Shown: positions 21,001 through 40,020 of the stretch, one piece after another
Position numbering within the stretch: the stretch's first letter is position 1
Layout of the letters: every line of letters starts with the position of its first letter
Source of the DNA: Sulfuricurvum sp. 17-40-25
GTDB lineage: Bacteria > Campylobacterota > Campylobacteria > Campylobacterales > Sulfurimonadaceae
Direction of reading: 5' to 3'
Length of the DNA stretch: 40,121 nucleotides
Assembly: GCA_002282015.1 (NCBI GenBank)
Contig: NCIJ01000010.1
Location: 1 to 40,121, forward strand
Made by a program: the position numbers and the translations under genes
Notes under the pieces: model-generated
What the model was told of the DNA's origin: nothing
The model's input: the letters and a program-made list of their open reading frames with translations, nothing else
Database searches by the model: none

Positions 21001-21053
21001 GCCCTCGAATTCTTTACTAAGATACACTTTCCCTAAAAACAGGGTAAAACATA

Positions 21054-21181
21054 ATGAAACAATTACTATGTGCAACACTTGAGGGGAATGAAGCTAAAAA
21101 TGTAGAAGTACAGTTTACTGCAACCAAAGGACTACCGGCATTTAGTATTGTTGGCATGGTCAATACCGCTATAACAGAATC
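21054..21181 (+). pseudogene. comM: comM, 5' fragment (interrupted by the element)
   Basis: ComM (YifB/Mg-chelatase-like) is a hexameric helicase that drives branch migration during natural transformation. Only the first 42 codons remain here: the family start is clear (LEGNEAKNVEVQFTATKGLP followed by AFSIVGM), ending ..NTAITES. The element begins at 21182 and supplies three foreign codons and a stop (TAG 21189-21191). The frame is restored exactly when 21176-21181 is joined to base 35721: the junction then reads AITESKERVKSALL, matching the family. The ATG at 21054 has AGGG upstream. Confidence 0.93.
21176..21181. repeat. 6-bp flanking direct repeat AGAATC, left copy
   Basis: AGAATC directly abuts the left terminal inverted repeat. 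The same 6 bp abut the right end at 35715-35720. It is either a target-site duplication or the 6-bp crossover spacer of a tyrosine-recombinase site. Confidence 0.88.
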
Positions 21182-21191
21182 CACCTGTTAG
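21182..21191 (+). repeat. Left terminal inverted repeat
   Basis: CACCTGTTAG is the exact reverse complement of the right end CTAACAGGTG (35705-35714). Just inside, TGTTAG recurs at 21214-21219, and a TGGCA-AAA-TGCCA hairpin sits at 21198-21210, which could be accessory recombinase sites. Confidence 0.9.
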
Positions 21192-21247
21192 CAAATATGG
21201 CAAAATGCCAACTTGTTAGTAAGAAAGAAATGTACAAGATAAAATAA

Positions 21248-21270
21248 GGCTACTTATCAAAAAGGTAGCC
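21248..21270 (+). promoter_or_regulatory. Hairpin overlapping the ribosome-binding site of the first recombinase
   Basis: GGCTAC (21248-21253) pairs with GTAGCC (21265-21270) across an 11-nt loop that includes most of the AAGG ribosome-binding site at 21262-21265. The ATG follows at 21272. Folding would limit translation of the recombinase, which would suit an element that must move rarely. This is a structural inference only. Confidence 0.35.
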
Positions 21271-21271
21271 C

Positions 21272-22780
21272 ATGAATAAAATTGCCTCTACTCAACTTCA
21301 TATCTATTCACCTACAATAGATAACAATCCAGTCAATACACCTATTGTCGACCACAATGGCGAAATACTTTACTACGCCAAGCCTCCAGATGACGATCTC
21401 AAATATGAAGATCAATTTGACCTAACACATTATAGCAATTTCACATTCGTACTGAATAAGGGTGGCACACTGTGGGAAGAAGCCAACCTCTACCTTTTGA
21501 ACATGATTGAAGATGATGCTGGATACAGTGAAGAAACGCGAATATCCTACAAGACGGTAGCGGCGCATGCTAAAGCATTACAAGATTACAAGTTCTTTTG
21601 CGACCTCAAAGATGATGAGCATGAATTAAGTGAAGAAGATCGAAAAACAAAGGCTTTTTGGATGATTGCCAAGCGGCCTACGAACCGCCCGAACTTTAAA
21701 TATAAAGAACATCTCGAAAAGAGAATGCTCAATCAAGAGCTCACACCTTCAACAGTCAAAAAAATGATACGGCCTATCACATCATTTTACGAGTTTGTCC
21801 AAAGAGAACTTGGCATGACATTTGAAACAACAATGCCTGGAAAGAAATTCGGTGCCATTATTGATACCGGCAACGGAAATGGAATATTTGTGGAAGGCAA
21901 TGAGGCCAACCGAGTCAGGGGAGCAACGAACTTTGATGATGGATATATTAGAGATGTTGGTAAGCTTCGTCCCCTTGATGAAGGCGAGCAGGCTCAACTA
22001 TTTAAAGTCCTTCATGATGATGGCCAGCCAGAGATGATCCTTTCCCATACCTTTGCCTATTTGACAGCAGCAAGAATGGATACGGTTTTCACACTTAGGC
22101 TAAATACATTCATAAATTCGCTTCCTCAAGACTATTCAGATGCCGCAATCAGGCAATGGTACGCGGAACAAAAGCAGATGGAGCCATACAAAGAATATGA
22201 TGTCATGATCGGGACTGGAACCCTCATAGATGCCAAAGGTACAGTCAAAAACTACGAACTCAAAGTACCAGGGTATCTAATTCAAATGCTCAGAGTCTAT
22301 ATTGTTTCTGAACGTGCGAAGAAGCGCAGGGAGGCGATGCGCCATAAACAGGCCAATCCGCTTCACGAATATGTTTTCATCACAGATAAAGGGCAACCCT
22401 ATTATGTTGCCAAAAGTGATCCACATAAAAGCAAGTACAAAAACCCGCCTGACGGTGGTGCAGTACGGGTATTTAAGACAAATGTCATCTCAAAGCAGAT
22501 TAGGTTTGAATACAGCTTTCATTTTCTTCGTGCCACCTGCTTAATGAACTTGATACGAACCCACCAGAAGCTTGTTGCCGATGGAGTATGGACGACGGAT
22601 CAATTGGAGTGTTTTGTGCAAAAAAGGGCTGGGCATCAAAATAAAGCTACTACACAAAAATATTTGAAATACAAATACCTCGAAAAACACCGTGCAGAAG
22701 CCATCGAAATCAGGGCAGCAAAACTGCTCAGCTGGATTGGGGATATGGGGGTAGCTAACAATGGCAAAACGAAAAACTGA
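21272..22780 (+). CDS. Tyrosine recombinase 1 of the element (TnpA-like)
   Basis: This is a site-specific recombinase of 502 aa. The tyrosine-recombinase catalytic set is visible in order: Arg268 (TAARMDTVFTLRL), His417-x-x-Arg420 (FHFLRATC), His455 (RAGHQNKATT) and nucleophile Tyr464 (QKYLKY). The H455-to-Y464 spacing of 9 is normal. The N-terminal half (about 60-190) is the expected SAM-like core-binding region (ETRISYKTVAAHAKALQDYKFF). ATG 21272 has AAGG 6 nt upstream, partly buried in a hairpin. It overlaps the next gene by 20 bp. It may cut one strand pair while the third protein cuts the other; that split is a guess. Confidence 0.9.
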   Translation: MNKIASTQLHIYSPTIDNNPVNTPIVDHNGEILYYAKPPDDDLKYEDQFDLTHYSNFTFVLNKGGTLWEEANLYLLNMIEDDAGYSEETRISYKTVAAHAKALQDYKFFCDLKDDEHELSEEDRKTKAFWMIAKRPTNRPNFKYKEHLEKRMLNQELTPSTVKKMIRPITSFYEFVQRELGMTFETTMPGKKFGAIIDTGNGNGIFVEGNEANRVRGATNFDDGYIRDVGKLRPLDEGEQAQLFKVLHDDGQPEMILSHTFAYLTAARMDTVFTLRLNTFINSLPQDYSDAAIRQWYAEQKQMEPYKEYDVMIGTGTLIDAKGTVKNYELKVPGYLIQMLRVYIVSERAKKRREAMRHKQANPLHEYVFITDKGQPYYVAKSDPHKSKYKNPPDGGAVRVFKTNVISKQIRFEYSFHFLRATCLMNLIRTHQKLVADGVWTTDQLECFVQKRAGHQNKATTQKYLKYKYLEKHRAEAIEIRAAKLLSWIGDMGVANNGKTKN

Positions 22781-24755
22781 TCCAATGAAAGGGTTGACTC
22801 AACTCAATATTTTATATATCGATCTTGACACTCTTATCAAAACGGTCGTCGAAGAAGAAAAGCCTTTGGGAGACTATCGGCACCTTGGGGTAAGGCTTAT
22901 AGATCATAGGGAAGGTTATTCAGACAAACTATTAAGCCTTTCACACGTTATGTACCACACAGTAATATTGAAAAATCCTCCCTCTGATGGCTCACCTATG
23001 CGGGTATTTGTTGATGAATCCACTTATGATGATAATCGTAAGAATGCTATTAACGGAATGATCAGAGCCCTAGCAGACAAAAGTGCCCTTTCAAAAGCCC
23101 GCAAAACAGATATTATAGGCGGTATGATGACCGCTCTTTTATGGCTTTACAATGAAAACATAGCACTTCCGAAGTCGCTTGATGAAGCTAGGAAGGCTTT
23201 TGTCAAATATAAAGAAGAACTCAACAAGTCTGTCAAAGCATCTGAATTATTACAAAGTTCAGCAGTCATACGGCTTCCGGGATTGCTAAGGTTGCTGTCC
23301 GGAATGCTGAAAATTGATGAAGCAAAAATAACAGAAGATATTGGATTAATACTCGAATCCAAAAAGCGGACAAATGCTTATAACAATACGGCAGCCTTCT
23401 CTCAAGAAGAGATGAGCCATGCGTTCTCGTTTTATTATCACCTCTTTGATCAGGTGGCGGATTTCTTGTTGGAATGCAAACCCTACCCTCATATTATAAA
23501 GCTTCCGCTAGGCAATGCTACTCTGCTACCAAATGCTCAACAAGGAGGAAGTATGATTGCGCTTGGCTACGGGCAACGGCGTAAAGGCGATGCAGCTGTA
23601 GACTACACGACTGGGCACATCCTGAGTGATAATGATATTGAAGCAGTAATTAGCAATCTTAAAGTCAAAAATACTGCCCGATCCGATATCAAAAGAAAAA
23701 GAGCCAAGCTTCTCGAAAAACTCGAATTGGTCAATGGAATGCCTAACCATCCTGTCCGTTTGGCACTTGGGAAAAAAGCGATGGAAGCATGGTTCATGTG
23801 CATGCTCTTTATCGCTCCTTTCAATGATGCGACACTTGCTACAATGGAGTGGAATGATACGGATGAGTTTGAGATAGAGCGGGCCGAAAATAAAGAATTC
23901 AGAGCCATCAAATACCGTGCTCAAAACAAACCTGTCCGGTTTGAAATATCCGCCGCATTTATGGATAGCTTTCGCAAGTTCCTCAAACTTCGCCGACTCA
24001 TCCTTGATGGATACTCATTTCAATACCTCTTCTTCGGCGGAGTAGGCAAAGATGCCTTTTTAACAAAAAACCAGCAAGATGGTAGATACGGTTCCTCGCT
24101 TGCAGGATCATTTATCAGAAATTTGGATAGTACATTGCCGCGCATTACGTCACGTAACAGTCGCAAAGATGCAGGCCGGGATGGCCTATCCTCCCATGGT
24201 CTTCAGGTAGCCCTTTCTATCTTGCAAAATAATAAAGCAACTTTTCTGAAGCATTACAATGGGCAAACAGCAGAAGAAATGGCTTCACAGGTACACAATT
24301 TCCTCGAAAATGTTCACGGCATCGTCAATGGTGGTCCCATAAAACCAGAGCAAGAAAGCGCCATTGGCGGATGTGGATACGAAGCTAATCCAGAGCCAAA
24401 GACAATCAGTGAAGAGAGTCCTGTACAAGCTGATTGTAACGACCAAAAAAGCTGCATTTTCTGCATACATTTCCGCACATATCCAGAGAAGGAACAGATA
24501 CGGAAACTTCAGAGCTTGAAATACATCATCAAAAATATAGCCTATCCAAGAGCAGAAGATGACAAGCACTACAACGAGGCAATGGGACCTTGGCTCATCC
24601 GTATTGATGCCCTGTTTTCTGTAATGAATGAGGAAGAGTATGGGGCTTACAAAATCATCGAAGAAGTCGGCACAGAAGTCTTTGATGAAGGAATGCTATC
24701 TCCATATTGGCTTGATTGGGTACAGCTATTTGAAGATTTAGGGAGATTCGCATGA
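22761..24755 (+). CDS. Catalytically degenerate recombinase-like protein with C-terminal Cys/His cluster
   Basis: The 664-aa second protein of the operon has the general layout of a large Tn554 TnpB-type integrase but lacks key residues. The expected first Arg region reads IAPFNDATLATMEW (no Arg), and the HxxR box reads H479-G-L-Q482, so the second Arg is Gln. A later HYNGQ may mark the old Tyr region. Near the C-terminus a Cys/His cluster (C559, C565, C568, H570) suggests zinc binding. It is probably a structural or DNA-binding partner of the two intact recombinases. It overlaps both neighbours (20 bp and 4 bp), which argues for fixed stoichiometry. The recombinase ancestry is inferred from pattern and context, not from a strong motif. 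Confidence 0.68.
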   Translation: MAKRKTDPMKGLTQLNILYIDLDTLIKTVVEEEKPLGDYRHLGVRLIDHREGYSDKLLSLSHVMYHTVILKNPPSDGSPMRVFVDESTYDDNRKNAINGMIRALADKSALSKARKTDIIGGMMTALLWLYNENIALPKSLDEARKAFVKYKEELNKSVKASELLQSSAVIRLPGLLRLLSGMLKIDEAKITEDIGLILESKKRTNAYNNTAAFSQEEMSHAFSFYYHLFDQVADFLLECKPYPHIIKLPLGNATLLPNAQQGGSMIALGYGQRRKGDAAVDYTTGHILSDNDIEAVISNLKVKNTARSDIKRKRAKLLEKLELVNGMPNHPVRLALGKKAMEAWFMCMLFIAPFNDATLATMEWNDTDEFEIERAENKEFRAIKYRAQNKPVRFEISAAFMDSFRKFLKLRRLILDGYSFQYLFFGGVGKDAFLTKNQQDGRYGSSLAGSFIRNLDSTLPRITSRNSRKDAGRDGLSSHGLQVALSILQNNKATFLKHYNGQTAEEMASQVHNFLENVHGIVNGGPIKPEQESAIGGCGYEANPEPKTISEESPVQADCNDQKSCIFCIHFRTYPEKEQIRKLQSLKYIIKNIAYPRAEDDKHYNEAMGPWLIRIDALFSVMNEEEYGAYKIIEEVGTEVFDEGMLSPYWLDWVQLFEDLGRFA

Positions 24756-26758
24756 GCCATGTAGTTACATTTCAGCCATTCGCTGGCATAAGAGATGATC
24801 TGCTGCCAGATCCATTTTATTATGACGAGGGAAACAGCCATATCGAACCTTCGCCTGATCATGTCATCAGTCGTCGTGATGGATTCGTATTGTCCCGCTA
24901 TAAAGACAATACATGGGACCTCACCCCTTATGCCACAAAACGTACGGTCTTGATTTTCGATACTATCTGCAATATTTCCCTACTTTCAGAGATGAAACGG
25001 TTGACTTACATTTTTATGATCTATGGCAGAGGGAGAAGCGGTACAATGCCCGGAGGAGCCTCTGTCGCACACATTTTTTATACTACTAAAATACTCGCCC
25101 AATACGCCAATTCAAAAGCCATTGGAATTAATGATATCCTTAAAAATAAACGGATTTTAAAGAATTTTATCGCTTTTCAAAACCGCAATTCACCATCTAT
25201 TCTGACCTCGCTAAGGGTATTATTGAACACTCTCAAATCAATCAGCGAAAAACGAAGCGGATTCATCTATGTTTATGACAAAAAAGTCGAGCGCCTGCTT
25301 GGAAGGCTGGTGCAGATGTATTCTGACAGTCATGACCAAACCGAACTGATCCCTGTCAGCATCTATGCTACAGCAGCTAAAATGAGATGGGAACATATGT
25401 CTTGTGTTGAGCCGTATGCTAAAAAACTTTCAGTGTTTTTAACGGAGTTTATAAACAATGAGGCTTTTGCGAGGCCATCTAAAAAACTGCCAGAAAAGAG
25501 CAAATACAATGGGGAATTCTCAACCTGGGACGATGCCACAGCCAAATATGGGCTCACGGGACTATTTGAAAAATACGGGGTCACAAGGCATAAGTCTTTT
25601 ACTTCATTTCTGAATCAAATCCAAAACACATGCCGCCATCTGATTCATCAATATACAGGTATGCGAGAAAGGGAATGCGCCACCTTGGCCCACGATTGCT
25701 GGCTTGAAAAAACCTCAGAGATGCCCTCTCGAATCCGGGGATACACCTCCAAATATATTGGGTACAAAAACCCTCAAGTATGGATCACACATGACGATAT
25801 AAAACGTGTCATCAATCTACTTAATGCAATATCCAAACCTATTTATGAGCATTATGGAAAACACCTTAAAAAGCGACCTCTTATCATGCGGACCGGTTTT
25901 ATAGCAGGCAAGAATAAAGAGACACAAAGTTATGACGAATCAGTATGTCACACACTATCAAATAGCAACTCGTATGAACTTTCCCTCAGCATTGAAGACA
26001 TAACGCTCACACAACAACATCTCGATAATGAATTAAGAGCAGTCGAACCAGATAGAGATTGGAGTAAACATGAATGGATCGAAGTTGGCAAGCCATGGCA
26101 TTTTGCAGCACATCAGTACCGCCGTTCTCTTGCCGTCTACGCACTAGGAAGCGGGCTGGTATCCCTATTCGCAATCAAAGAGCAATTTGGACATCTGCTA
26201 TCGCTGATCACGGCGTATTATGGCAATGGAAATCTAACTGCAAAACGGCTTGATGGAAAAATTGACGAAACTAACCATATCGGAAAATATATGGCTTCCA
26301 TCGACTATCAGATTAAAGCATACGGCTTCATCAAGAATGTCTACCTGAGCGAAGAACCTTTATTTGGTGCAGGTGGAGTCCATTTCGAGAAACATGTCAT
26401 TGCCAGAACTCCTGAAGCTAGGGAAGCGGTAATGAAGAGTGCTCCACATACTGCCAAAAAGTTCAAAAGTGGGCTACTACATTGGCACGACACACCGATG
26501 GGAGGATGTATCTGCTCAGATAAATGCGACAAATACCTATTACCAGACTTCTTTATCTACTGCAACGGGTGCGATCACTCTGTCCAAAAGCTCTCAAAGA
26601 TCGAAAAGATAGCAGAAGCACAGTACAAAAGCGCCATGGCTTGGGGAGAACGCATGCCTGACTCAATCGTTCACCGTACCGAAGTAAGAAAGTCGATTGC
26701 GCTCAATGAGTACGTTGAACTACTAAAACGAAAACAAGAAAAATTGGAGACAGTATGA
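24752..26758 (+). CDS. Tyrosine recombinase 2 of the element (TnpB-like) with C-terminal zinc cluster
   Basis: The 668-aa third protein has an intact catalytic set late in the chain: Arg305 (YTGMRERECATLA), His454-x-x-Arg457 (AAHQYRRSLAVY), His481 (EQFGHLLS) and Tyr489 or Tyr490 (TAYYGN). After the catalytic domain comes a Cys-rich region (GGCICSDKCDKY ... YCNGCDHS, about 585-610) that should bind zinc, as in Tn554 TnpB-type integrases. The long N-terminal 300 residues are of unknown fold. It overlaps both neighbouring genes by ATGA (4 bp). Confidence 0.85.
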   Translation: MSHVVTFQPFAGIRDDLLPDPFYYDEGNSHIEPSPDHVISRRDGFVLSRYKDNTWDLTPYATKRTVLIFDTICNISLLSEMKRLTYIFMIYGRGRSGTMPGGASVAHIFYTTKILAQYANSKAIGINDILKNKRILKNFIAFQNRNSPSILTSLRVLLNTLKSISEKRSGFIYVYDKKVERLLGRLVQMYSDSHDQTELIPVSIYATAAKMRWEHMSCVEPYAKKLSVFLTEFINNEAFARPSKKLPEKSKYNGEFSTWDDATAKYGLTGLFEKYGVTRHKSFTSFLNQIQNTCRHLIHQYTGMRERECATLAHDCWLEKTSEMPSRIRGYTSKYIGYKNPQVWITHDDIKRVINLLNAISKPIYEHYGKHLKKRPLIMRTGFIAGKNKETQSYDESVCHTLSNSNSYELSLSIEDITLTQQHLDNELRAVEPDRDWSKHEWIEVGKPWHFAAHQYRRSLAVYALGSGLVSLFAIKEQFGHLLSLITAYYGNGNLTAKRLDGKIDETNHIGKYMASIDYQIKAYGFIKNVYLSEEPLFGAGGVHFEKHVIARTPEAREAVMKSAPHTAKKFKSGLLHWHDTPMGGCICSDKCDKYLLPDFFIYCNGCDHSVQKLSKIEKIAEAQYKSAMAWGERMPDSIVHRTEVRKSIALNEYVELLKRKQEKLETV

Positions 26759-27138
26759 CACCAGCAGAAAAAGAGTTTACAGAAGCATTCAAACGGCTAA
26801 AATCAGGAAAACCCATTCGGGTTAAAAAGTATAGCCTGATTGACCTCAATATGGTTGCACTTGAAGCAGGTAAAAAAGCAGGATCTCTACGTCGAGTAAG
26901 ATATCCAGATCTATGTAAAGAGATTGATGCTTATGATAAACCCGAAAAACAAGAGCAAAAGGACAAAAGACTCAAAGAACAGTATCATTCAGAAAAAGCA
27001 GAATATGAAAATCTTTGGCATCAGACCTTGGCAAGAGAGTTGATGTTGATTAAACGAGTGGGTGAATTAGAGAAGACACTTAGAAGCATAAAACAGAAGT
27101 ATCCAGGTGTATTGTTTGATTTAGATGATATGAATTAA
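26755..27138 (+). CDS. TnpC/DUF6262-like small accessory protein
   Basis: The 127-aa product has an N-terminal helix-turn-helix-like stretch (SLIDLNMVALEAGKKAGSLR, then RYPDLCKEI), resembling the VAxEAGVSRxTLYRxP pattern of Tn554 TnpC and DUF6262 proteins. A Lys/Glu-rich coiled coil follows (about 60-118). TnpC in Tn554 aids orientation or efficiency of integration; a similar helper role is inferred. The start overlaps the recombinase 2 stop (ATGA), making it the last gene of the mobility operon. A second copy of its last 88 or so codons lies 5.5 kb downstream (32628-32903). Confidence 0.75.
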   Translation: MTPAEKEFTEAFKRLKSGKPIRVKKYSLIDLNMVALEAGKKAGSLRRVRYPDLCKEIDAYDKPEKQEQKDKRLKEQYHSEKAEYENLWHQTLARELMLIKRVGELEKTLRSIKQKYPGVLFDLDDMN

Positions 27139-27237
27139 ACTATTCATCAATCTATGGTTTTTATAACACAAAATAATATATGAAAATTATGGTATATTAA
27201 AAATCAAAACATATACGATTACAATAGGCTCAAAATA

Positions 27238-30200
27238 ATGTCACAATCACCAGAACTCGCCGGCGGCGAAGGTTTTACTTTTGAGGGAACCGCAGCGGCT
27301 TACTATCTCAGTTCACTGTTAGCCGAAGCATATGCCCCCGGAATCGATAACAAAACGGTTGTTCAAGTATCAGTACAACAGCGCGATTTTGGTGAACCTC
27401 TTGATGATGTTATTGTCGATTTTGAGGATATTGCAAAGAATTCCTCTCGCCTTAGTCTTCAAATCAAACGCTCTCTTACAATTAGCCAAGCTAAAACGAA
27501 TAAAGACTTTCGTGACATAATACGCGACAGCTGGGCCACATTTAATAAGCCAAATTTCCGTATAAATAATGACCGTTATGGGGCAGCAGTTGGCACAATC
27601 ACCGCTACAAAAGAACGAGCACTCAAAACTCTTTGTGATTGGGCCCGTGAAAGTCTGACAACAGACCATTTTGACACACGATTTTCGATAAGTGGCATTG
27701 CTAGTGCCGACCTCAGAACAATCAAGAATGATATAGTTGCCTTACTAGAAGAGGTAAAGGGAGCATCGTGTACAAATACAGAGGTCCATCAGTTCCTTGC
27801 ACACTTTGTACTCATCCAATTTGACTTCCTACGAGAAGGAGCAACTGATCACACAGATGCAATTAATCGTATTCAATCTTGTCTCACATCTAGTGATGCA
27901 AAGAAAGCACCTCTTGTATGGTCTCACATAGTTCAATTAGCCCGTGCATCAGCTGGCAAGGCAGGACAATTTACCCGCTCACAGCTTGTAAACCTAATCA
28001 CACCTATCGCACATCTTCAAGGTGCAACTTCTTTACGCCAAGACCTCGACCAATTAACCATTCTCGCAAAAAACTATTCGGATCTTATTCAAGACGATAT
28101 CGGTGGGACGAAGCTCAATCGAAACACATTGATAGAAGAGCTACATATTAAACTAACCAAAGCCCGCTTAGTCCAAATCCGCGGCCTACCAGGAAGTGGT
28201 AAGTCAGCTCTCATAAAGCACACCGTGCAGCATGCATTAGAGCGCGGGTCCGTCCTCTTCCTTAAAGCTGAACAACTTGAAGGCACTAGTTGGATTAGCT
28301 ACGCGAATGCACAAGGTCTTTCAAGTGTACCTTTAGAACAACTTCTCGTAGAAATCGATGCCACCGGTACTCCAATTTTCTTCATCGACGCGATTGATCG
28401 TATAGAAAAAGAACACCAACCAATCATTCTTGACGTAATTAACACCATCGTGAACTCTCCGTTACTCAGCAACTGGCGCGTTATCGTTTCTCTACGTGAT
28501 ACTGGTATTGAAATACTTCGGAATTGGTTAGGCCACCTCCTTGATGTAGTTACAGTCGAGACACTTAATACTGACCAATTGAACGATGAAGAAGCAGAGA
28601 TACTCGCAAATGCAAAACCACACCTAAGACCATTACTATTTGGAACTAGCCAAATTCAAGAGATTGTTAGACGTCCCTTTTTTGCAAAAGTGCTGAATCA
28701 AAGCTATGTGGCAGATCCAAGCATCCCAACCTTTATACCCCAATCTGAAGTAGATTTGATCGAAAATTGGTGGAAACATGGTGGCTATAATGAGTCTGGT
28801 CAAGATGCAATTGAACGCCAACAAGTATTGCTTAAATTAGCTTCTATTCATGCACGTGATCTGAGCCGACCAATTCGTCTTAGTGTGCTCACTAATGTTG
28901 CACATATCGATGATTTAAGAACAGACGGTATCCTTCAAAACGCTCGGCTTGGAATATCCTTTCGCTTTGCCCACGATATTTTCTTTGAATGGGCTTTTTT
29001 TCATGTCCTTGCCGACAAGGAAGAACAATGGGTAGATGAAATAAAGGCTTGTGGAGAACCGCCAGCAGTCGCACGTGTGGTAGAACTCCTTTCCCAGTGG
29101 GAATTTACATGCGGCAAGAACTGGGCAACAAATCTTGCCAAAACCCAAAAATCAAACCTTAGATCTCAATGGTTGCGAGCATGGCTGATTGGTCCCATTG
29201 GAACTGCAAAATTCGAAGCCGATGAAAATCAATTTACGAAGATCGTCTTTGCTGACGACTTCCAACTCTTCAGAAAAATGCTTGTCTGGTTTCAAGCGGA
29301 AAAAACTTCTCCAAATGCTAATATCTTAGCTGGTAGCTTACCACATGAAAAACGTCAGCAATTTGCTTATCTTCTTGGCTGGCCTTCCGATTTCGCCTCA
29401 TGGCGTCGGCTAATTGACTTTATTCTTCGATACATTTCAGACATTCCACAGCGTCTTTATCCGGAGATCGTTGCTATTTTCGAAGTCTGGCAGAATGCTC
29501 TATCTGATCTTCGCAATCCGACGTCTAATGCTCTTCTATTGCAATGTGCAATGTGGCTCAATGCTATTGATAGGATTGGTATATCTAATGGTCCTGATGA
29601 GAACTCAGCGTATTGGAAAAATGTGCCTAATTTAGGTGAATTCCGAAAATCTTTAGAGGCGCTACTTTTAAGGTCTGCAGGAGCTGAACCAACCTTTTCT
29701 GCCGATTACTTACAACGAATTATCAACTCAAAGTCCCTACATGAAAAAGAGTTTCACAACATTATTGCATACTCGCCATTTCTTGCCAAATCGTTGCCAA
29801 AACTACTTGCCGAACTTTCTTTAATACACTTCTGTAAGGAACTTCCAGACGATACGGCTATTCGTTTAAAAAAAGAATCTCGTGCTGCAGCTAAGATGCG
29901 TGAAGGAATTCAAGCAAAACCAGAACAAGAGCGAACACAGCTAGAGAAAATGACGCTTGCCAGCTTTCCTTCGCACCTCTTTCACGATTTTAACAGGCAC
30001 GATTGGGAACACCTATCGATATATGACAATTTCAGTAGTGCATGGCCTCCTTCACCACTTAGAGAACCATTTCACTCTCTTTTCCAGGTATCACCTAATG
30101 AAGCACTTAAACTCCTTAGAAATCTGTGCAATCACGCCATAACTGCATGGTGTCAGCTCCATCGTCATTCATATGAACGAGAGGGAGTCCCTATACCACT

Positions 30201-32586
30201 CGAACTCATATTCCCTTGGGGTAGTCAAAAGTTTTGGGGAACAGATCGGGAGTATCTTTGGTTTCGGTCAATGTTTGCACCAAAAATCATCGGTTGTGGA
30301 TTTATGGCATTGGAGGAGTGGTGTTTCGCTGAGCTAAAAAATGGTATGGCCATTGACGAGCTGATTCAGCAAATTCTGGCAGAGAACGAATGTATTGCCA
30401 TCCTTGGTACTGCCATAATGCTCTTACTGCATACGGAGTCGGTATCTGAAGTTACATTGCCTCTTGTTACTTCACAACGTCTCTTAATGGCAGATCAATA
30501 CCGATTGGTTCAAGATTATTCATCTCTTGCAAATCTGATAGGATTCACTCGCCACGATGACAATCACTTTGAAGCAGTTCAAGCAGCAAACAAACGGTCA
30601 GTTCGTAAAAAAGAACTCAAATGGTTGATTCCTAAGTTTGTATTTGGAGCTAAATCGATAAGCGATCATACTCGCAATGCTGTCCTCAACTTCAAAAACG
30701 ATTTGCCCTTTCAGTACGTGGAGCATCGCAGTATTCCGGAGATACAAGAAGAGCTCACGATTCAAGCTGTCAAATATGCAGAGTTAATTGATGAAAAGAA
30801 TTACCAAGCCTATCACACCGAAGAAAACTCTGATCAGATTGCAATTGTCCACGTCAGCCCTTCTGCTGCTGAACCTGAAAATGTCGCCAGAGCTGAAGAA
30901 GCATCAAAATGGCTTCAGTATAACAGCCTTTGGATATGGGCATCCAAGTCTTTTGAAGATAAGGTACTATGTAATACCCACTCGATTGCTAATGCGATTA
31001 CATTGGCTAAAGAAGCCGACAGCAACGATTTATTTGAATGTTTGCAAGACAATCGCGGAGAAGAGCTTCTGAGTCAATATCAAAGTGCTGTCGTCGCAAC
31101 TGCAGCCATTGTGCTCAACTTCCGAGAAGGATGCACCCTTGAAGAGCTTGAGTGGGCATACAATGTAATAAAACGAGCAAGCAAATTACCATCAATAGCT
31201 GCTTCAACGTATTCATCCAGTTCTATCATCCCGTGGCATCCCTTGATCTACGTTGCATATGGATTGGGAGCAAATATCCGCGAAGACAAAGCAATACTGG
31301 ATATAATTCTTAGCCTTCTCAAGCTCATATCAGAGCCGCTAGAAATCGTCTCATTAACCGCATTTGAAGAAGCCTGCAGTCTTTGGAATAAAGATCCAAA
31401 ACTAACTTGGACAGCACTAATCTTGGCATTATCGTTTTGTCATTATCCGTCACGATTAAGCCATCAAGTTGATAAACGAGGTGAAATACTCAATACAGCT
31501 ATTTCTTTTTATGAAAATGGGAATGGATGGTCTACTCTTCCATTACCGCCTCCAGCATGGGTAAAAGTCCAACCTAATAGAAATCGCCGCGAACATTGGG
31601 ACGACGAAGATTACAGTGATTCTGATCTGATTATCACAGATGAGTCATGGGGTGAACCTGATATATACTGGAATTCAAAGCAGGCGGCCGAAATCTTTAA
31701 ACGCATTCCTTTCGATGCACTTTTGAATAGCAGCGCAAGAAATACGTTTCTGGAGTTTCTTGCTTCTGTTCTGGACTGGACCAATCAGAAAAATGCCCCG
31801 CATTGGGTAAAGCCAGGACATCGAAATCACTCATCAACCCGTAACTTAGAATGGACCTACACGTTAGGATCGAGTCTCGGTAAAGTAGCGGGACTTATCC
31901 CTCTTGATGAATTTCAAGCTCCATTTCTCGACCGAATATTGGAATTAGAGGGTGACAATTGTTGGCATATACTTTCTTCTTTTACAGACACTTACATCTG
32001 TGCTTACGTGTATGATGCATCAGTAGTTCCAATCGATGCAATCACCATACTTAATCTCTGTCTTGAAAGGCTTCTCCATGCCCCTGTTTTCAATCGCGGA
32101 ACCTATCGAAGCGGAGAACTCTCCGGCTTTGATTTACCGAGACTTGTGCAAACTTTGATGTTTGTCTCAGTTGAACGTGCAGATTTATCCGCTCGCTACG
32201 TCAATGGCGACTGGTCAGAAATCGATCGTATTCTGCCTCTCATTAATCGTTTCATCCGTGCCGCTGGATGGGCTTCTTCCATAATGAATCCCTTTTTAAC
32301 TTTATGCGAACGGGCTAAAGCCAACTATCCAGCTGAAATCTTTGCCGATCAAGTACTATCGATTATAGGGAATGACCCCGAGGATAACCTAAAAGGATGG
32401 CATGGAACATTTATTCCGGCACAAATTGCAGAACTTGTGCAGTATTTTGCACATCGTGATGCACCAATGGAATTAGCTCTCGCTCAGAAGTTACTACAAA
32501 TCCTTGATATACTTGTTGATATGGGTGACCGGCGCAGTGCAGCACTTCAGTTAAATGAAGTTTTTCGTGAAGTCCGGTTATCCTAA
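27238..32586 (+). CDS. Avs-like STAND NTPase with N-terminal Cap4/Mrr-like nuclease domain
   Basis: The 1,782-aa protein has the three-part plan of antiviral STAND (Avs) proteins. The first part is an N-terminal nuclease-like domain (about 1-170): GFTFEGTAAAYYL start, then LDDVIVDF (55-62) and LQIKR (about 74-78), giving the D...QxK form of a PD-(D/E)xK site seen in Cap4/DUF4297-type nucleases. The second is a P-loop NTPase with Walker A GLPGSGKS (316-323) and Walker B FFIDAIDRIE (about 379-388). The third is a helical C-terminal region of about 1,200 residues that would be the sensor. Avs proteins recognise a phage protein, assemble, and degrade DNA. Its position as cargo in a mobile island fits. 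It has a 99-bp leader with a possible TATATT box near 27191; the ribosome-binding site is weak. Confidence 0.8.
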   Translation: MSQSPELAGGEGFTFEGTAAAYYLSSLLAEAYAPGIDNKTVVQVSVQQRDFGEPLDDVIVDFEDIAKNSSRLSLQIKRSLTISQAKTNKDFRDIIRDSWATFNKPNFRINNDRYGAAVGTITATKERALKTLCDWARESLTTDHFDTRFSISGIASADLRTIKNDIVALLEEVKGASCTNTEVHQFLAHFVLIQFDFLREGATDHTDAINRIQSCLTSSDAKKAPLVWSHIVQLARASAGKAGQFTRSQLVNLITPIAHLQGATSLRQDLDQLTILAKNYSDLIQDDIGGTKLNRNTLIEELHIKLTKARLVQIRGLPGSGKSALIKHTVQHALERGSVLFLKAEQLEGTSWISYANAQGLSSVPLEQLLVEIDATGTPIFFIDAIDRIEKEHQPIILDVINTIVNSPLLSNWRVIVSLRDTGIEILRNWLGHLLDVVTVETLNTDQLNDEEAEILANAKPHLRPLLFGTSQIQEIVRRPFFAKVLNQSYVADPSIPTFIPQSEVDLIENWWKHGGYNESGQDAIERQQVLLKLASIHARDLSRPIRLSVLTNVAHIDDLRTDGILQNARLGISFRFAHDIFFEWAFFHVLADKEEQWVDEIKACGEPPAVARVVELLSQWEFTCGKNWATNLAKTQKSNLRSQWLRAWLIGPIGTAKFEADENQFTKIVFADDFQLFRKMLVWFQAEKTSPNANILAGSLPHEKRQQFAYLLGWPSDFASWRRLIDFILRYISDIPQRLYPEIVAIFEVWQNALSDLRNPTSNALLLQCAMWLNAIDRIGISNGPDENSAYWKNVPNLGEFRKSLEALLLRSAGAEPTFSADYLQRIINSKSLHEKEFHNIIAYSPFLAKSLPKLLAELSLIHFCKELPDDTAIRLKKESRAAAKMREGIQAKPEQERTQLEKMTLASFPSHLFHDFNRHDWEHLSIYDNFSSAWPPSPLREPFHSLFQVSPNEALKLLRNLCNHAITAWCQLHRHSYEREGVPIPLELIFPWGSQKFWGTDREYLWFRSMFAPKIIGCGFMALEEWCFAELKNGMAIDELIQQILAENECIAILGTAIMLLLHTESVSEVTLPLVTSQRLLMADQYRLVQDYSSLANLIGFTRHDDNHFEAVQAANKRSVRKKELKWLIPKFVFGAKSISDHTRNAVLNFKNDLPFQYVEHRSIPEIQEELTIQAVKYAELIDEKNYQAYHTEENSDQIAIVHVSPSAAEPENVARAEEASKWLQYNSLWIWASKSFEDKVLCNTHSIANAITLAKEADSNDLFECLQDNRGEELLSQYQSAVVATAAIVLNFREGCTLEELEWAYNVIKRASKLPSIAASTYSSSSIIPWHPLIYVAYGLGANIREDKAILDIILSLLKLISEPLEIVSLTAFEEACSLWNKDPKLTWTALILALSFCHYPSRLSHQVDKRGEILNTAISFYENGNGWSTLPLPPPAWVKVQPNRNRREHWDDEDYSDSDLIITDESWGEPDIYWNSKQAAEIFKRIPFDALLNSSARNTFLEFLASVLDWTNQKNAPHWVKPGHRNHSSTRNLEWTYTLGSSLGKVAGLIPLDEFQAPFLDRILELEGDNCWHILSSFTDTYICAYVYDASVVPIDAITILNLCLERLLHAPVFNRGTYRSGELSGFDLPRLVQTLMFVSVERADLSARYVNGDWSEIDRILPLINRFIRAAGWASSIMNPFLTLCERAKANYPAEIFADQVLSIIGNDPEDNLKGWHGTFIPAQIAELVQYFAHRDAPMELALAQKLLQILDILVDMGDRRSAALQLNEVFREVRLS

Positions 32587-32627
32587 GCTTTATTATCATT
32601 TTTAACAAAGTTTGAGAATGAGAATGC

Positions 32628-32903
32628 TTGCAACCAAAAAAAGCAGGATCTCTACGTAGAGCAAGATATCCAGATCTATGTAAAAAGATTGATGATTATG
32701 ATAAACCCGAAACACAAGAGCAGAAGGACAAAAAACTCAAAGAACAGTATCATTTGGAAGAGGGAGAGTATGAGGATCTTTGGCATCAGGCATTAGCAAG
32801 AGAGTTGATGCTGATTAAGCGAGTGGGTGAATTAGAGAAGGAACTTAGAGATATAAAACAAAAATATCCTGGAGTGCTGTTTGGGTTAGATAACATTAAT
32901 TAG
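32628..32903 (+). pseudogene. 5'-truncated second copy of the TnpC-like gene
   Basis: From codon 4 onward this 91-aa reading frame matches the C-terminal 88 residues of the 127-aa protein at 26755-27138 (for example AGSLRRARYPDLCK and ARELMLIKRVGELEKELR). The DNA similarity begins abruptly at about 32636. The N-terminal 36 or so residues, including part of the helix-turn-helix, are gone, and the frame can only start at a TTG without a clear ribosome-binding site. I estimate roughly 85% DNA identity by eye, so it is not a very recent duplicate. It separates the two cargo modules. Confidence 0.8.
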
Positions 32904-32993
32904 TGTGGTAGGAATCAAGCTCCTCCTAGCATCTCTGTAACTCGTATTTTGCTTGTTTGTATTGCTCTAATTAAGTACAGTATTGTAGAATAT

Positions 32994-32999
32994 TATAAT
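32994..32999 (+). promoter_or_regulatory. Putative -10 box for the ATPase-HEPN operon
   Basis: A perfect TATAAT lies 22 bp upstream of the ATPase ATG, in a very AT-rich 118-bp gap after the TnpC-like remnant. The implied leader would be about 15 nt, so the ribosome-binding site (GGA at 33012-33014) would be near the 5' end. No clear -35 is present. Confidence 0.4.
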
Positions 33000-33021
33000 T
33001 AAGTAAATACTGGAAAACAAA

Positions 33022-34713
33022 ATGACAAGTGACAGCTTATTTATTGAACAAGCGGAATATATCAATCCTGAAGATTTTATAGAGTGGTCAAGTGAACATC
33101 CGAATGAAGAAGTTATTTTAAAGAAACTAACTCAGGCGGGTGCCAAGCTCTTAACAGGTCCACGTGGATGCGGAAAAACAACATTAATGCTTAAGGCATA
33201 TAACAAGCTAAATAGTAGCAAGAATAATGGTGCATTTCCGATATATGTTAATTTTAAATTGTCACTAAAATTAGAGCCTTTATATAAAAGTAAAGCCAAT
33301 GGTGGTTATTGGTTTTCACAGTGGATGTATTTGAAGATATATGAGGGTATTTACAAGAGTCTTGAGAGCAAAGATATTGGTAAAGATGTGAATTTCCATA
33401 TCAAATTGATTGAAATTGAGAAAGCGATGAGCTTGCTCGAATTAGGCGAAATAAACAGGGAGGAATTGACAAATCTCAACCTATCAACATACATCCTTAA
33501 CAATGACATTAATATAGCAATGAATCTGGTAAATAAAACCCGATGTGTGCTATTTTTGGATGATGCAGCGCACGCATTCGCTCCTGAGCAGCAGCATGAT
33601 TTTTTTGAATTCTTTAGAAAAATCAAAAGTCGAAATATCTCTCCAAAGGCCGCAATCTACCCTGGTGTAACGAATTTTTCACCCACCTTTAATATTGGGC
33701 ATGATGCGGAAGAGATTAATGCGTGGATCAATCCAGAGGATGATAACTATTTTGCATTCATGATAATGATGCTAAGAAAAAGGCTTCCTGCGGAAGTATT
33801 CGAAAAGCTTACACAAGAGGAATCCCTTTTGTCAATTATGTGCTATGCATCATTTGGAATACCCAGAATGTTGTTGAATATGGTACGCAATATGTATGTT
33901 GAAAACGAAGAAGATGGAGAAATAACATATGAAATAAATTTCACAAGAAAAAATGTGCTCAAAGAGGTTAAAGTATGTACACAAAGCGTAATGTCTATTT
34001 ATTCATCCCTTGAGCTAAAATTACCAATTTATAAGCATTTTGTTGAAGTTGGGAATGTAGTTTTTAGCAGAATTATTGATTTGATTAAGACTTACAATAA
34101 AGATAAACAAGTAGGGCTTAAAAGTATAACCGTAGCAATCAAAAAAGAAACAAACCTTAATCTAAAGAAAATTATAGGTTTTTATCAATATGCAGGTCTT
34201 CTCAGTGAAAAAGGACAAATTAGCAAAGGGGAAAAGGGCATATTTGATCTTTATTTAATAAACCTTTCTTTTTTGATTGACAGTAATGCACTTTTTGCAG
34301 CTAAAAAAGTCAAAACAGATGATTTGGCAACAGCACTCAAGACTCGGAATGCCCACGCTTTTACTCGAACTCAAGCAGACTACTTGCTACAAGATGAGGA
34401 GTGTAAGCTTAGCTTGAGTCTTCCACCATGCCAAAAATGTGGTAAAAATAGAGATAATGAAGAGGCTAGATTCTGTTCTAATTGCGGATCACCATTAAAA
34501 GCTGCATCGATTTATGAAGAGTTAATCAATCAAGACATTGATGCTCTTCCGCTAACCACAACAAGAATCAGTGGAATAAAAAATCATTCAAATATCAAGA
34601 AGGTTAGAGATATTTTATTTGATATTGATCATAAAGAACTTAATTCCGTTCCTAGAATTGGTCAATATTGGGCTGCTAAAATTTATTACATAGCCGAGGA
34701 GTATATCTCATAA
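33022..34713 (+). CDS. Orc1/Cdc6-like P-loop ATPase with zinc ribbon and C-terminal HhH domain
   Basis: The 563-aa protein starts with an ATPase: Walker A GPRGCGKTT (about residues 47-55), Walker B CVLFLDDAAHAF (about 175-186), and a later AAA-lid-like helical region. A zinc ribbon follows (CQKCGKNRD ... FCSNCGSPL, about 472-495), then a C-terminal helix-hairpin-helix (VRDILFDIDHKELNSVPRIG followed by QYWAAKIYYIA), a DNA-binding motif. It resembles proteins annotated as ORC-CDC6 family AAA ATPases in defence islands. The stop overlaps the HEPN gene start by 1 bp (TAATG), implying coupled synthesis of a two-protein system. The gene is clearly more AT-rich than the core genes, consistent with transfer. 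Sensor and regulator roles are inferred. Confidence 0.78.
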   Translation: MTSDSLFIEQAEYINPEDFIEWSSEHPNEEVILKKLTQAGAKLLTGPRGCGKTTLMLKAYNKLNSSKNNGAFPIYVNFKLSLKLEPLYKSKANGGYWFSQWMYLKIYEGIYKSLESKDIGKDVNFHIKLIEIEKAMSLLELGEINREELTNLNLSTYILNNDINIAMNLVNKTRCVLFLDDAAHAFAPEQQHDFFEFFRKIKSRNISPKAAIYPGVTNFSPTFNIGHDAEEINAWINPEDDNYFAFMIMMLRKRLPAEVFEKLTQEESLLSIMCYASFGIPRMLLNMVRNMYVENEEDGEITYEINFTRKNVLKEVKVCTQSVMSIYSSLELKLPIYKHFVEVGNVVFSRIIDLIKTYNKDKQVGLKSITVAIKKETNLNLKKIIGFYQYAGLLSEKGQISKGEKGIFDLYLINLSFLIDSNALFAAKKVKTDDLATALKTRNAHAFTRTQADYLLQDEECKLSLSLPPCQKCGKNRDNEEARFCSNCGSPLKAASIYEELINQDIDALPLTTTRISGIKNHSNIKKVRDILFDIDHKELNSVPRIGQYWAAKIYYIAEEYIS

Positions 34714-35543
34714 TGTTGGACTGGAAGCAAACTGTTAGTGCTCCCGCCACAACAGTTAATATTGGAAATATTGCCAGTTATGTTTGTACAAGCATTCCTT
34801 CAAGTTCGCCAATAGACAATTTCTACAATGAAAGAAATAAACTTTTGAGTGCCGTATCACCGACTTATGCTACAAGTCACCCAACGGTTATACCTTTGAT
34901 TTTAGTTGGAATGATATCAATTACAGAAAATTATTTTCGAGAACTGCTGGCTGGCATAATTACCCTATGCCCAGTTGCTAAAGAAAAAAGTTCAAGTAAA
35001 GCTTTAAATTTGGCGACTATTTGGTTTGGATATAGTCAGATGGAGAAAGGTGCGTTTGAAAACATTTCATTTTCTGATGTTGATGCTGTTAAAAAAGCAT
35101 TTCAATCTTTTATTGGGTATGAAATAAAGCCAAGTAATCAACTCATTGCCCCTTTGAATGAGTTTGGAAAGTTGTGTGAATTAAGACACGCAATTGTGCA
35201 TAGCGCCAGTATTCTAGCTGGAAAAAATGCTATAAAATTGCAATTACCTGGCTCAGGAAATCCGGTAAGGGTTCAAGTTGGATTTTCTGAATTACAAGAA
35301 GCGGCAGAAGTTTGTACATCTCTAATTTGTGCAGTTAATTTGGATTTATTTGAATTACTTTCACGAAGATGGTTGTTTGAGTGGCCAGGAACACCTGCGT
35401 ATATAGGACAAGATATGAACCAACTTTTTCGGAAAGTCTGGAACTTGTTTTATTCAAATTTTGATGCCACGAATGGATTAATTTCTCAGCCCCTAACTTA
35501 TGTCAAAACAAAAAACCTTATCATATCTACAAATGCTTCATAG
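34713..35543 (+). CDS. HEPN-domain protein, candidate RNase effector
   Basis: The 276-aa, mostly helical product contains the HEPN signature R158-H-A-I-V-H163 (CELRHAIVHSAS), the Rx4H form with His after Arg that is typical of RiboL-PSP/MAE_28990-type HEPN ribonucleases. The upstream helix VIPLILVGMISITENYFRELL is the usual HEPN partner helix. HEPN proteins act as RNases in toxin-antitoxin, Abi and CRISPR systems. Paired by a 1-bp overlap with the ATPase, it is the likely killing arm that the ATPase controls. No transmembrane segments are seen. The catalytic role is inferred from the motif; it could also be a non-catalytic dimer partner. Confidence 0.75.
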   Translation: MLDWKQTVSAPATTVNIGNIASYVCTSIPSSSPIDNFYNERNKLLSAVSPTYATSHPTVIPLILVGMISITENYFRELLAGIITLCPVAKEKSSSKALNLATIWFGYSQMEKGAFENISFSDVDAVKKAFQSFIGYEIKPSNQLIAPLNEFGKLCELRHAIVHSASILAGKNAIKLQLPGSGNPVRVQVGFSELQEAAEVCTSLICAVNLDLFELLSRRWLFEWPGTPAYIGQDMNQLFRKVWNLFYSNFDATNGLISQPLTYVKTKNLIISTNAS

Positions 35544-35714
35544 TATTTTGTTTTTCATGATACTAATTGATAACATAGCTTATGTTTTTGAATGTACAAT
35601 ATTTGCCGCATAGAATACATTAACTAAGTAAAATCAGTGTACATGGTGTAGAATCATAAAAAGCCTTATTTATCGTAATTCATTCAATGTACTTCATAAT
35701 AATACTAACAGGTG
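35544..35714. other. Noncoding right end of the element with repeated TGTAC sites
   Basis: No gene is visible in this AT-rich 171 bp. A weak stem-loop TAGTAT/ATACTA (35541-35565) at the HEPN stop may terminate transcription. TGTACA or TGTAC occurs at 35593-35598, 35638-35643 and 35688-35692, spaced 45-50 bp, and once near the left end (21231-21236); these could be accessory recombinase-binding sites. A boundary-like string (GGTG, T, AGAATCA) occurs at about 35645-35656. Confidence 0.4.
35705..35714 (-). repeat. Right terminal inverted repeat
   Basis: CTAACAGGTG is the exact inverted copy of the left end (21182-21191). In a circular form the two ends would face each other across a 6-bp spacer, the usual core of a tyrosine-recombinase site. 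Confidence 0.9.
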
Positions 35715-35720
35715 AGAATC
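35715..35720. repeat. 6-bp flanking direct repeat AGAATC, right copy
   Basis: This AGAATC copy continues straight into the comM frame (GAA TCA AAA GAA CGG GTC). It matches the left copy at 21176-21181. Confidence 0.88.
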
Positions 35721-36522
35721 AAAAGAACGGGTCAAATCGGCTCTATTGAGTAATGAGTTCACCTTTCCTCCCAAACGACTAACCGTTAACTTAGCACCCA
35801 GTGATTTACGCAAAGAAGGATCGCATTTTGATCTCGCAGTAGCTGTTTTGATTGCTTTAGGCAATGATGAGAGTACTCTGGATGAGTGGCATGTATTTGG
35901 AGAACTAGGATTGGATGGCTCCGTAACCGAAAATACCCTTCTTTATCCAATCATCCTATCCTTAGCCAACAAAGGAGCAATTACTAAAGCCATTGTCCCG
36001 ATCAATAGCATCAATAAGCTCTCAAAAATACCTAATATCTCTTTTTACGGTGTTTCGACACTTACCGATACCTTACAGCTATTACGGTCTAAAGAAACGA
36101 TCCCACACGCGCAATCAACATCGTTTGAATTTCCCTCAACATTGCATAATGCGCAAGCCTATTATCATCATGAAAACTACCCTTTGGATTTTAAAGATAT
36201 AAAAGGACAAGAACATGCCAAACGTGCAGCACTTATCAGTGCTGCAGGGATGCATAATATACTGCTCGAAGGTTCTCCGGGATCTGGAAAATCGATGATA
36301 GCGAAACGTTTACAGCATATCCTTCCTCCACTCAACAACACTGAAATGCTTGATTGTGCAAAGCTCGAAATATTAGAGGGTAAGGAGCCTTCATTTGCAC
36401 CTCTACGCCCCTTTAGGTCACCACACCATACCAGTACGGCAGCAAGTATATTTGGAGGAGGAAGTCACAAAGCGCAAATTGGGGAAGTAGGATTAGCCCA
36501 TAACGGTATATTATTTTTCTAG
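35716..36522 (+). pseudogene. comM: comM, central fragment, truncated again inside Walker B
   Basis: The frame opens at the element boundary with ESKERVKSALL and continues through the N-terminal Lon-like domain (PPKRLTVNLAPSDLRKEGSH) and the ATPase Walker A (EGSPGSGKSM), plus the RPFRSPHHTST loop typical of ComM. It ends AHNGILFF followed directly by TAG, where the family has NGILFFDE, so the break falls within Walker B. About 190 C-terminal residues found in normal ComM (about 500 aa) are absent and do not reappear in the window. An internal TTG at 35746 could start translation, but the product would be dead. Confidence 0.92.
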
Positions 36523-39639: not shown

Positions 39640-40020
39640 TTATTTGCTTTCTTTGGAATTCAAAAAGAGTTCCCTGTAAGCGAGCACTGCACCGTCATGA
39701 AGATAAAGAATTCTCCCATCGTTGGTCTTTGATGATTCTTTAATACAGACATATCCTTTATTAATTAGAATTGAACGGTAAGTGCCTCGCACGATATCAC
39801 CCATTCCCCACACGCCGTCACCATCTATATCAAGATGGTAATCTGGAAATAGGCATCTCATTATCCTTACAAAAACTTTTGGGGAAATCTTGCGAAGAGA
39901 CATTCGATTGATATTTTGGTTGTCCTTTACGTAATACCTGAATTCTCCAAGTTTCATATTCGGGATTGATTTTATCCCCTTGTCACCATTGGTATAGCCA
40001 ACCTGGCTAAGCTTGATCAT
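39640..40020 (-). CDS. Unknown 126-aa protein paired with a Phd/YefM-like antitoxin
   Basis: This soluble, basic protein (MIKLSQVGYTNGDKGIKSIP, later FPDYHLDIDGDGVWGMGDIV) belongs to no family I can name. Its ATG lies inside the antitoxin-like gene (14-bp overlap), the usual coupling of antitoxin-toxin pairs, so a toxin role is possible. The central Asp-rich DIDGDG segment could bind a metal, as EF-hand-like loops do, but this is speculative. The gene is transcribed away from the window edge. Confidence 0.5.
   Translation of the reverse strand: MIKLSQVGYTNGDKGIKSIPNMKLGEFRYYVKDNQNINRMSLRKISPKVFVRIMRCLFPDYHLDIDGDGVWGMGDIVRGTYRSILINKGYVCIKESSKTNDGRILYLHDGAVLAYRELFLNSKESK

Follow-up and report, generated by a model that had tools for sequence, protein, structure and literature searches.

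Why does a mobile island carry, in the middle of its cargo, a second and incomplete copy of the last gene of its own mobility operon? The question is raised by a 40,121-nt stretch of a Sulfuricurvum sp. 17-40-25 contig (NCIJ01000010.1; here called the window), in which an island at 21176-35714 is inserted in comM (yifB) at AGAATC. The features of the locus, all on the forward strand, are as follows.

21053-21181 (+), 5′ part of the target gene comM (yifB), through the AGAATC core, continuous with the intact comM of genome G076 (L042)
21176-21181 (+), left core AGAATC, 6 bp, from the empty-site alignment
21182-21191 (+), left terminal inverted repeat, CACCTGTTAG
21272-22780 (+), gene A, tyrosine recombinase, 502 aa, catalytic R-K-HxxR-H-Y residues conserved
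22761-24755 (+), gene B, recombinase-like partner in a tfp-like position, 664 aa, without the canonical catalytic set
24752-26758 (+), gene C, large tyrosine recombinase, 668 aa, R305/K334/H454/R457/H481/Y490 conserved
26755-27138 (+), gene D, complete, TnpC-like (ginD/srap type), 127 aa
27238-32586 (+), module 1, Avs4-like STAND/NACHT protein, 1782 aa
32637-32903 (+), copy 2, the gene D fossil, a 5′-truncated diverged copy with the last 88 codons plus stop
33022-34713 (+), module 2 gene 1, AAA/ORC-CDC6-like ATPase with a zinc ribbon, 563 aa
34713-35543 (+), module 2 gene 2, 276 aa, whose homologue at L197:9678-10502 matches RiboL-PSP-HEPN weakly
35544-35714 (+), AT-rich right end, 74% A+T, with the terminal inverted repeat CTAACAGGTG at 35705-35714
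35715-35720 (+), right core AGAATC, 6 bp, from the empty-site alignment
35715-36519 (+), middle part of comM, interrupted a second time at 36511-36519 by a further insertion

The limits of the island were given by an empty site in genome G076 of the same genus, where comM is intact and the alignments from the two sides overlap by exactly 6 bp, AGAATC. The terminal inverted repeats (CACCTGTTAG/CTAACAGGTG) are perfect over 10 bp, and similarity beyond these 10 bp is weak. Genes A, B, C, and D form a single operon with overlapping ends, the only A-D operon of this type in the source genome. With this operon and the matching ends remaining, the island probably moves as one unit. The same genome also contains a second, distantly related island in arsC (G000:C44, L005; 26 to 30% protein identity). 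The other interruption of comM, at 36511-36519, shows an overlap of ~9 bp at the joint, and the rest of the gene is found on contig C10 (G000:C10:1398 onward), so this insertion spans a contig gap. It includes DUF1294 and Fic-domain genes and a gene for a small protein (39640-40020, reverse strand) that resembles, with a shared KLGEFRYY stretch, a protein encoded on contig C44 (L005:7406-7843, reverse strand); neither is assigned to a family. Three further genomes of the genus (G048, G063, and G064) have comM matches that stop at residues 239 to 241, with short open frames. Either insertion into comM may recur, or these may be contig effects.

Two kinds of elements with four mobility genes have been published, GInts (genomic islands with three integrases, ginABCD; Bardaji et al. 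2017, PMC5385486) and SEs (strand-biased circularizing integrative elements, intA-tfp-intB-srap; PMC10214605). The island resembles GInts in its left-end operon of three recombinase-like genes and a small TnpC-like gene in the same order and strand, in variable cargo that begins at or next to the gene 4 stop, in an AT-rich right end, and in site-specific insertion into a gene with short flanking repeats and a 6-nt staggered core (AGAATC in the window). The presence of two different islands in one genome is a further likeness. However, published GinA and GinB are catalytic and GinC is degenerate, missing the first arginine, whereas in the window the catalytic set is found in A and C but is missing from B. 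The host phylum, to which the Sulfurimonas and Aliarcobacter relatives also belong, is likewise not listed for GInts (PMC5385486). The likeness to SEs, which rests on the SE description rather than on a verified SE sequence, lies in the order catalytic-degenerate-catalytic-small (intA, tfp, large intB, srap) matched by A-B-C-D, the end inverted repeats, the 6-bp footprint, and a coiled-coil fourth protein. SEs differ in having imperfect repeats of 13 to 19 bp instead of perfect ones of 10 bp, and they were published from Gammaproteobacteria only (PMC10214605). Because the tripartite layout and the cargo start match GInts and the catalytic order matches SEs, the island was filed under a GInt/SE superfamily and neither kind was chosen. 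Genes A, C, and D have distant homologues in L230, a four-gene element carried by an IncC plasmid. GinD has low similarity to TnpC of Tn554 according to the GInt authors (PMC5385486), and the island shares with Tn554 a TnpC-like small protein, tyrosine recombinases, insertion into one gene, and a 6-bp core, but the published Tn554 has three mobility genes (tnpA, tnpB, and tnpC) and not four. Gamma-Mobile-Trio and RIT elements were dropped as identities, the four-gene literature fitting better.

Only one family of long direct repeats was found between 20 kb and the end of the window (20-40 kb). Positions 26872-27137 and 32637-32902 align without gaps over 266 nt at 86.47% identity (E = 1.6e-80). 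This confirms what the first-pass annotation had noticed, namely, an Avs-like gene between a complete TnpC-like gene and a 5′-truncated diverged copy, with a second module (33022-35543) on the 3′ side of the latter; the end it assigned to the truncated copy, 32903, is exact. The copies are 5.5 kb apart on the same 40-kb contig and in the same orientation. Copy 2 lacks the first 39 codons of gene D and retains the frame and the stop, with TAG replacing TAA. From a TTG start at 32628 it can be read as a stop-free frame of 91 aa that keeps the coiled-coil region. Homology ends at the stop codon in both copies, and neither the upstream nor the downstream flanks are more alike than expected by chance (p 0.12 to 0.17).

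The changes that separate the two copies point to the origin of copy 2. First, dN was 0.087 and dS was 0.496 (dN/dS about 0.18), and 15 amino acid changes were observed compared to ~25 expected neutrally, the minimum in 1000 simulations being 17. Second, copy 2 has zero stop codons, though 87% of neutral simulations gain one. Third, with L024 and L025 as outgroups, the nucleotide changes split 16/12 over the two branches. Judged from these substitutions, the copies diverged under purifying selection. Because the divergence is constrained, falls on both branches, and is stop-free, copy 2 would come from the working gene of a sibling element. It would thus have been a working gene D elsewhere for most of the time since the split and would have been cut off recently. 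A partial duplication of gene D in place, followed by decay of the extra copy, accounts for two copies in the same element and orientation, but on the copy-2 branch it requires a dN/dS close to 1, and no such value was observed. Neither the low ratio, the missing stops, nor the changes on both branches agree with it, and for truncated DNA to stay under such constraint through 14% divergence would be impossible unless it were functional. Such a duplication is therefore very improbable. The divergence had already been taken to argue against a simple tandem duplication, and it is the selection pattern between the copies that rejects it. Copy 2 might also still be a working short gene, for example, a dominant modulator of gene D or a means of transcription coupling to module 2, as its stop-free open frame and retained coiled-coil region would allow. 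We consider this improbable, since the start is weak, no such gene is present in 79 comparison loci, and a past in a sibling element already explains the constraint.

Module 1 matches the NCBIfam model for Avs4 (AVAST type 4) with 124 bits (3e-36) against a curated cut-off of 1500 bits, and the match is confined to the STAND region, residues 290 to 754, leaving the C-terminal part unmatched. The term "Avs-like" is therefore apt insofar as the sequence suggests a STAND protein related to Avs4, but not in the sense of Avs4 itself. A full-length relative, 37% identical, was found on a Polaromonas plasmid with a tyrosine recombinase nearby. The gene pair of module 2 also occurs on a Limimaricola plasmid (42% and 31%), where the second gene weakly matches a HEPN family. 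Both cargo sets are probably anti-phage. Defence-like cargo also stands behind gene D in relatives, with Dsr1 in L075, a Cap4-nuclease STAND protein in L020, type I restriction in L024, and PDC-M60A in L021.

The most fitting reading of copy 2 is that a second element was fused to the first and left its gene-4/cargo boundary there as a fossil. We give a probability of about 0.8 to the island having been assembled from two sibling tyrosine-recombinase islands, both four-gene members of the GInt/SE superfamily. Element 1 would have supplied the left end, genes A to D, and the Avs4-like cargo; element 2 would have supplied 88 codons from the 3′ end of its own gene D, the AAA/HEPN-like cargo, and the right end. 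Because cargo often starts at the gene D stop in such islands, 32637-32903 would be the old gene D/cargo border of element 2. The feature in the window is real and informative in that it is the fossil border of a second island inside the first. Of the two origins originally offered, recombination between two related elements is the one that stands, given the derivation of copy 2 from a sibling's functional gene and the change of cargo at gene D 3′ ends; this supports an exchange at the gene 4 end between such elements. Neither half was found alone in any relative, and so we infer the two parent elements. The draft state of the genome (50 contigs, 1.6% estimated contamination) could suggest that elements of different strains were joined by the assembly. 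However, a single 40-kb contig holds both copies at a distance of 5.5 kb, the insert is bounded in comM by matching ends and cores on both sides, and the genome has a single A-D operon of the island's type. An assembly artefact is hardly credible.

The joining of the two elements would have been an illegitimate event. By one route, a tandem insertion at the same comM site would have come first, and then a deletion that began past the Avs4-like gene and ended within the second gene D. By another, a single crossover would have taken place between gene D copies, with a circle carrying a gene D 3′ end and the Avs4-like gene. Both routes fit the present data. An attachment remnant would favor the tandem route because it might have stayed at the junction, but none was found beyond chance; the best match to an att-like sequence between the Avs4-like gene and copy 2 was at chance level (6.5% of sequence windows, shuffle p 0.17).

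A search by profile and tblastn was made over 80 loci with gene D (the window and 79 others), covering 1.17 Mb of DNA behind gene D. A second gene D stretch was present in two of the 80, the window and L177 (Pseudomonas), that is, in 1 of the 79 comparison loci. In L177, the last 24 codons plus stop of a gene D from another lineage (83% to L150) begin 32 nt behind an intact gene D and are followed by umuDC cargo. The proposal that each module generally arrives with its own tnpC 3′ end finds no support at this frequency, and the one scar in a relative sits directly behind the intact gene and not between modules, where such scars had been anticipated. Because scars are too rare in this sample, exchange at the gene D end cannot be called the standard route of cargo gain. 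This rarity, along with borders that are not always at the gene D stop, also weakens the reading of the island as two fused elements. Apparent second copies in L151 and L158 were rejected, as gene D is broken in place there; in L151 (G762:C37:844282-844895), ~200 bp of extra DNA splits gene D, and the remainder is a near-perfect match to the gene D of L135. No pieces of gene C were found in any cargo.

Gene D was uncommon nearby, occurring in 3 of 228 genomes of the family and 8 of 397 of the phylum. Additional loci came from genome contigs, plasmids, and 70 of 399 Pseudomonas genomes, and gene D alone had no matches in viral contigs or in the first genome-contig scan. The A-B-C-D order was kept in all operons examined, and both copies were carried by no relative. 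A variable gene right after tnpC had been suggested as something to look for in relatives, and cargo indeed changed at the gene D end in several families. For instance, L024 and L025 share a chromosomal site and have wholly different cargo after gene D, and L020 and L075, with operons 91.7% identical, part at most 40 nt from the gene D stop. Among pairs at 80% identity or above, 25 of 36 parted 2 to 65 nt after this stop (four families), and borders of this kind were seen in L020/L075, a seven-member Pseudomonas family, L072/L125/L160, and L180/L181. Cargo variation was tied to the gene D end in 4 of 11 multi-member families; at least 280 nt of cargo was shared in 6 of the 11. In the seven-member family, 20 of 21 pairs parted within 62 nt of the stop. 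Border positions within one family were +2, +12, +14, +32, +36, and +61, and because they differ in the seven-member family (+2 to +62), there is no fixed crossover base. In L148 and L178, of one Pseudomonas family, a palindrome (GCTAGTCGC...GCGACTAGC) lies 20 to 65 nt past the gene D stop. The cargo borders of L149 and L177 are inside it, and no similarity was seen between the palindrome and the right ends of the family.

Clustering of borders 2 to 65 nt behind the stop in four families, like the scars in the window and L177, is what would be seen if the recombinase system captured cargo at the gene D 3′ end as a preferred site, at times dragging along a piece of the donor's gene D. The GInt authors allow for acquisition of DNA by the integrases and say that evidence for it is lacking (PMC5385486). 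However, the borders vary inside one family and a common core sequence is absent, no att-like match at the window junction exceeds chance, and retention of the nearest border together with selection for an intact gene D also gives clustering, which leaves such capture unlikely. Doubtful to a similar extent is the idea that the gene D 3′ end is a portable junction at which islands swap whole cargo blocks, with their own recombinases involved and the fossils as footprints.

If the island is a composite of two sibling elements, the diverged gene 4 fossil between two cargo modules is the footprint of one cargo-gain event, and fusion of two sibling islands can yield a single island in which the mobility operon is still complete and the ends still match. 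A fossil gene 4 in this position is not described for GInts, and the route by which they gain their large and mostly adaptive cargo was stated as unknown (PMC5385486). The rule applied here, a search for 5′-truncated diverged gene 4 ends inside cargo, led to the second case in Pseudomonas and makes cargo gain testable across many genomes.

The first cargo gene showed a separate trend. In three unrelated island groups, it is a homologue of the gene that is interrupted by the island or targeted by its family. L005 (12374-12712, 19251-19433) and L023 have a complete diverged arsC right behind gene D, and the chromosomal copy is split after ...RTKED. These two loci had been candidates for cargo-free islands and were rejected as such, since the arsC after gene D is an import and the split copy is the chromosomal one. 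L021 (9546-10091, 3702-4169) has a complete diverged maf homologue right behind gene D, and L177 (reverse strand of G884:C255) has a complete diverged umuDC there, umuC being the insertion target of its family. The arsC, maf, and umuDC genes behind gene D look like target-gene rescue as first cargo.
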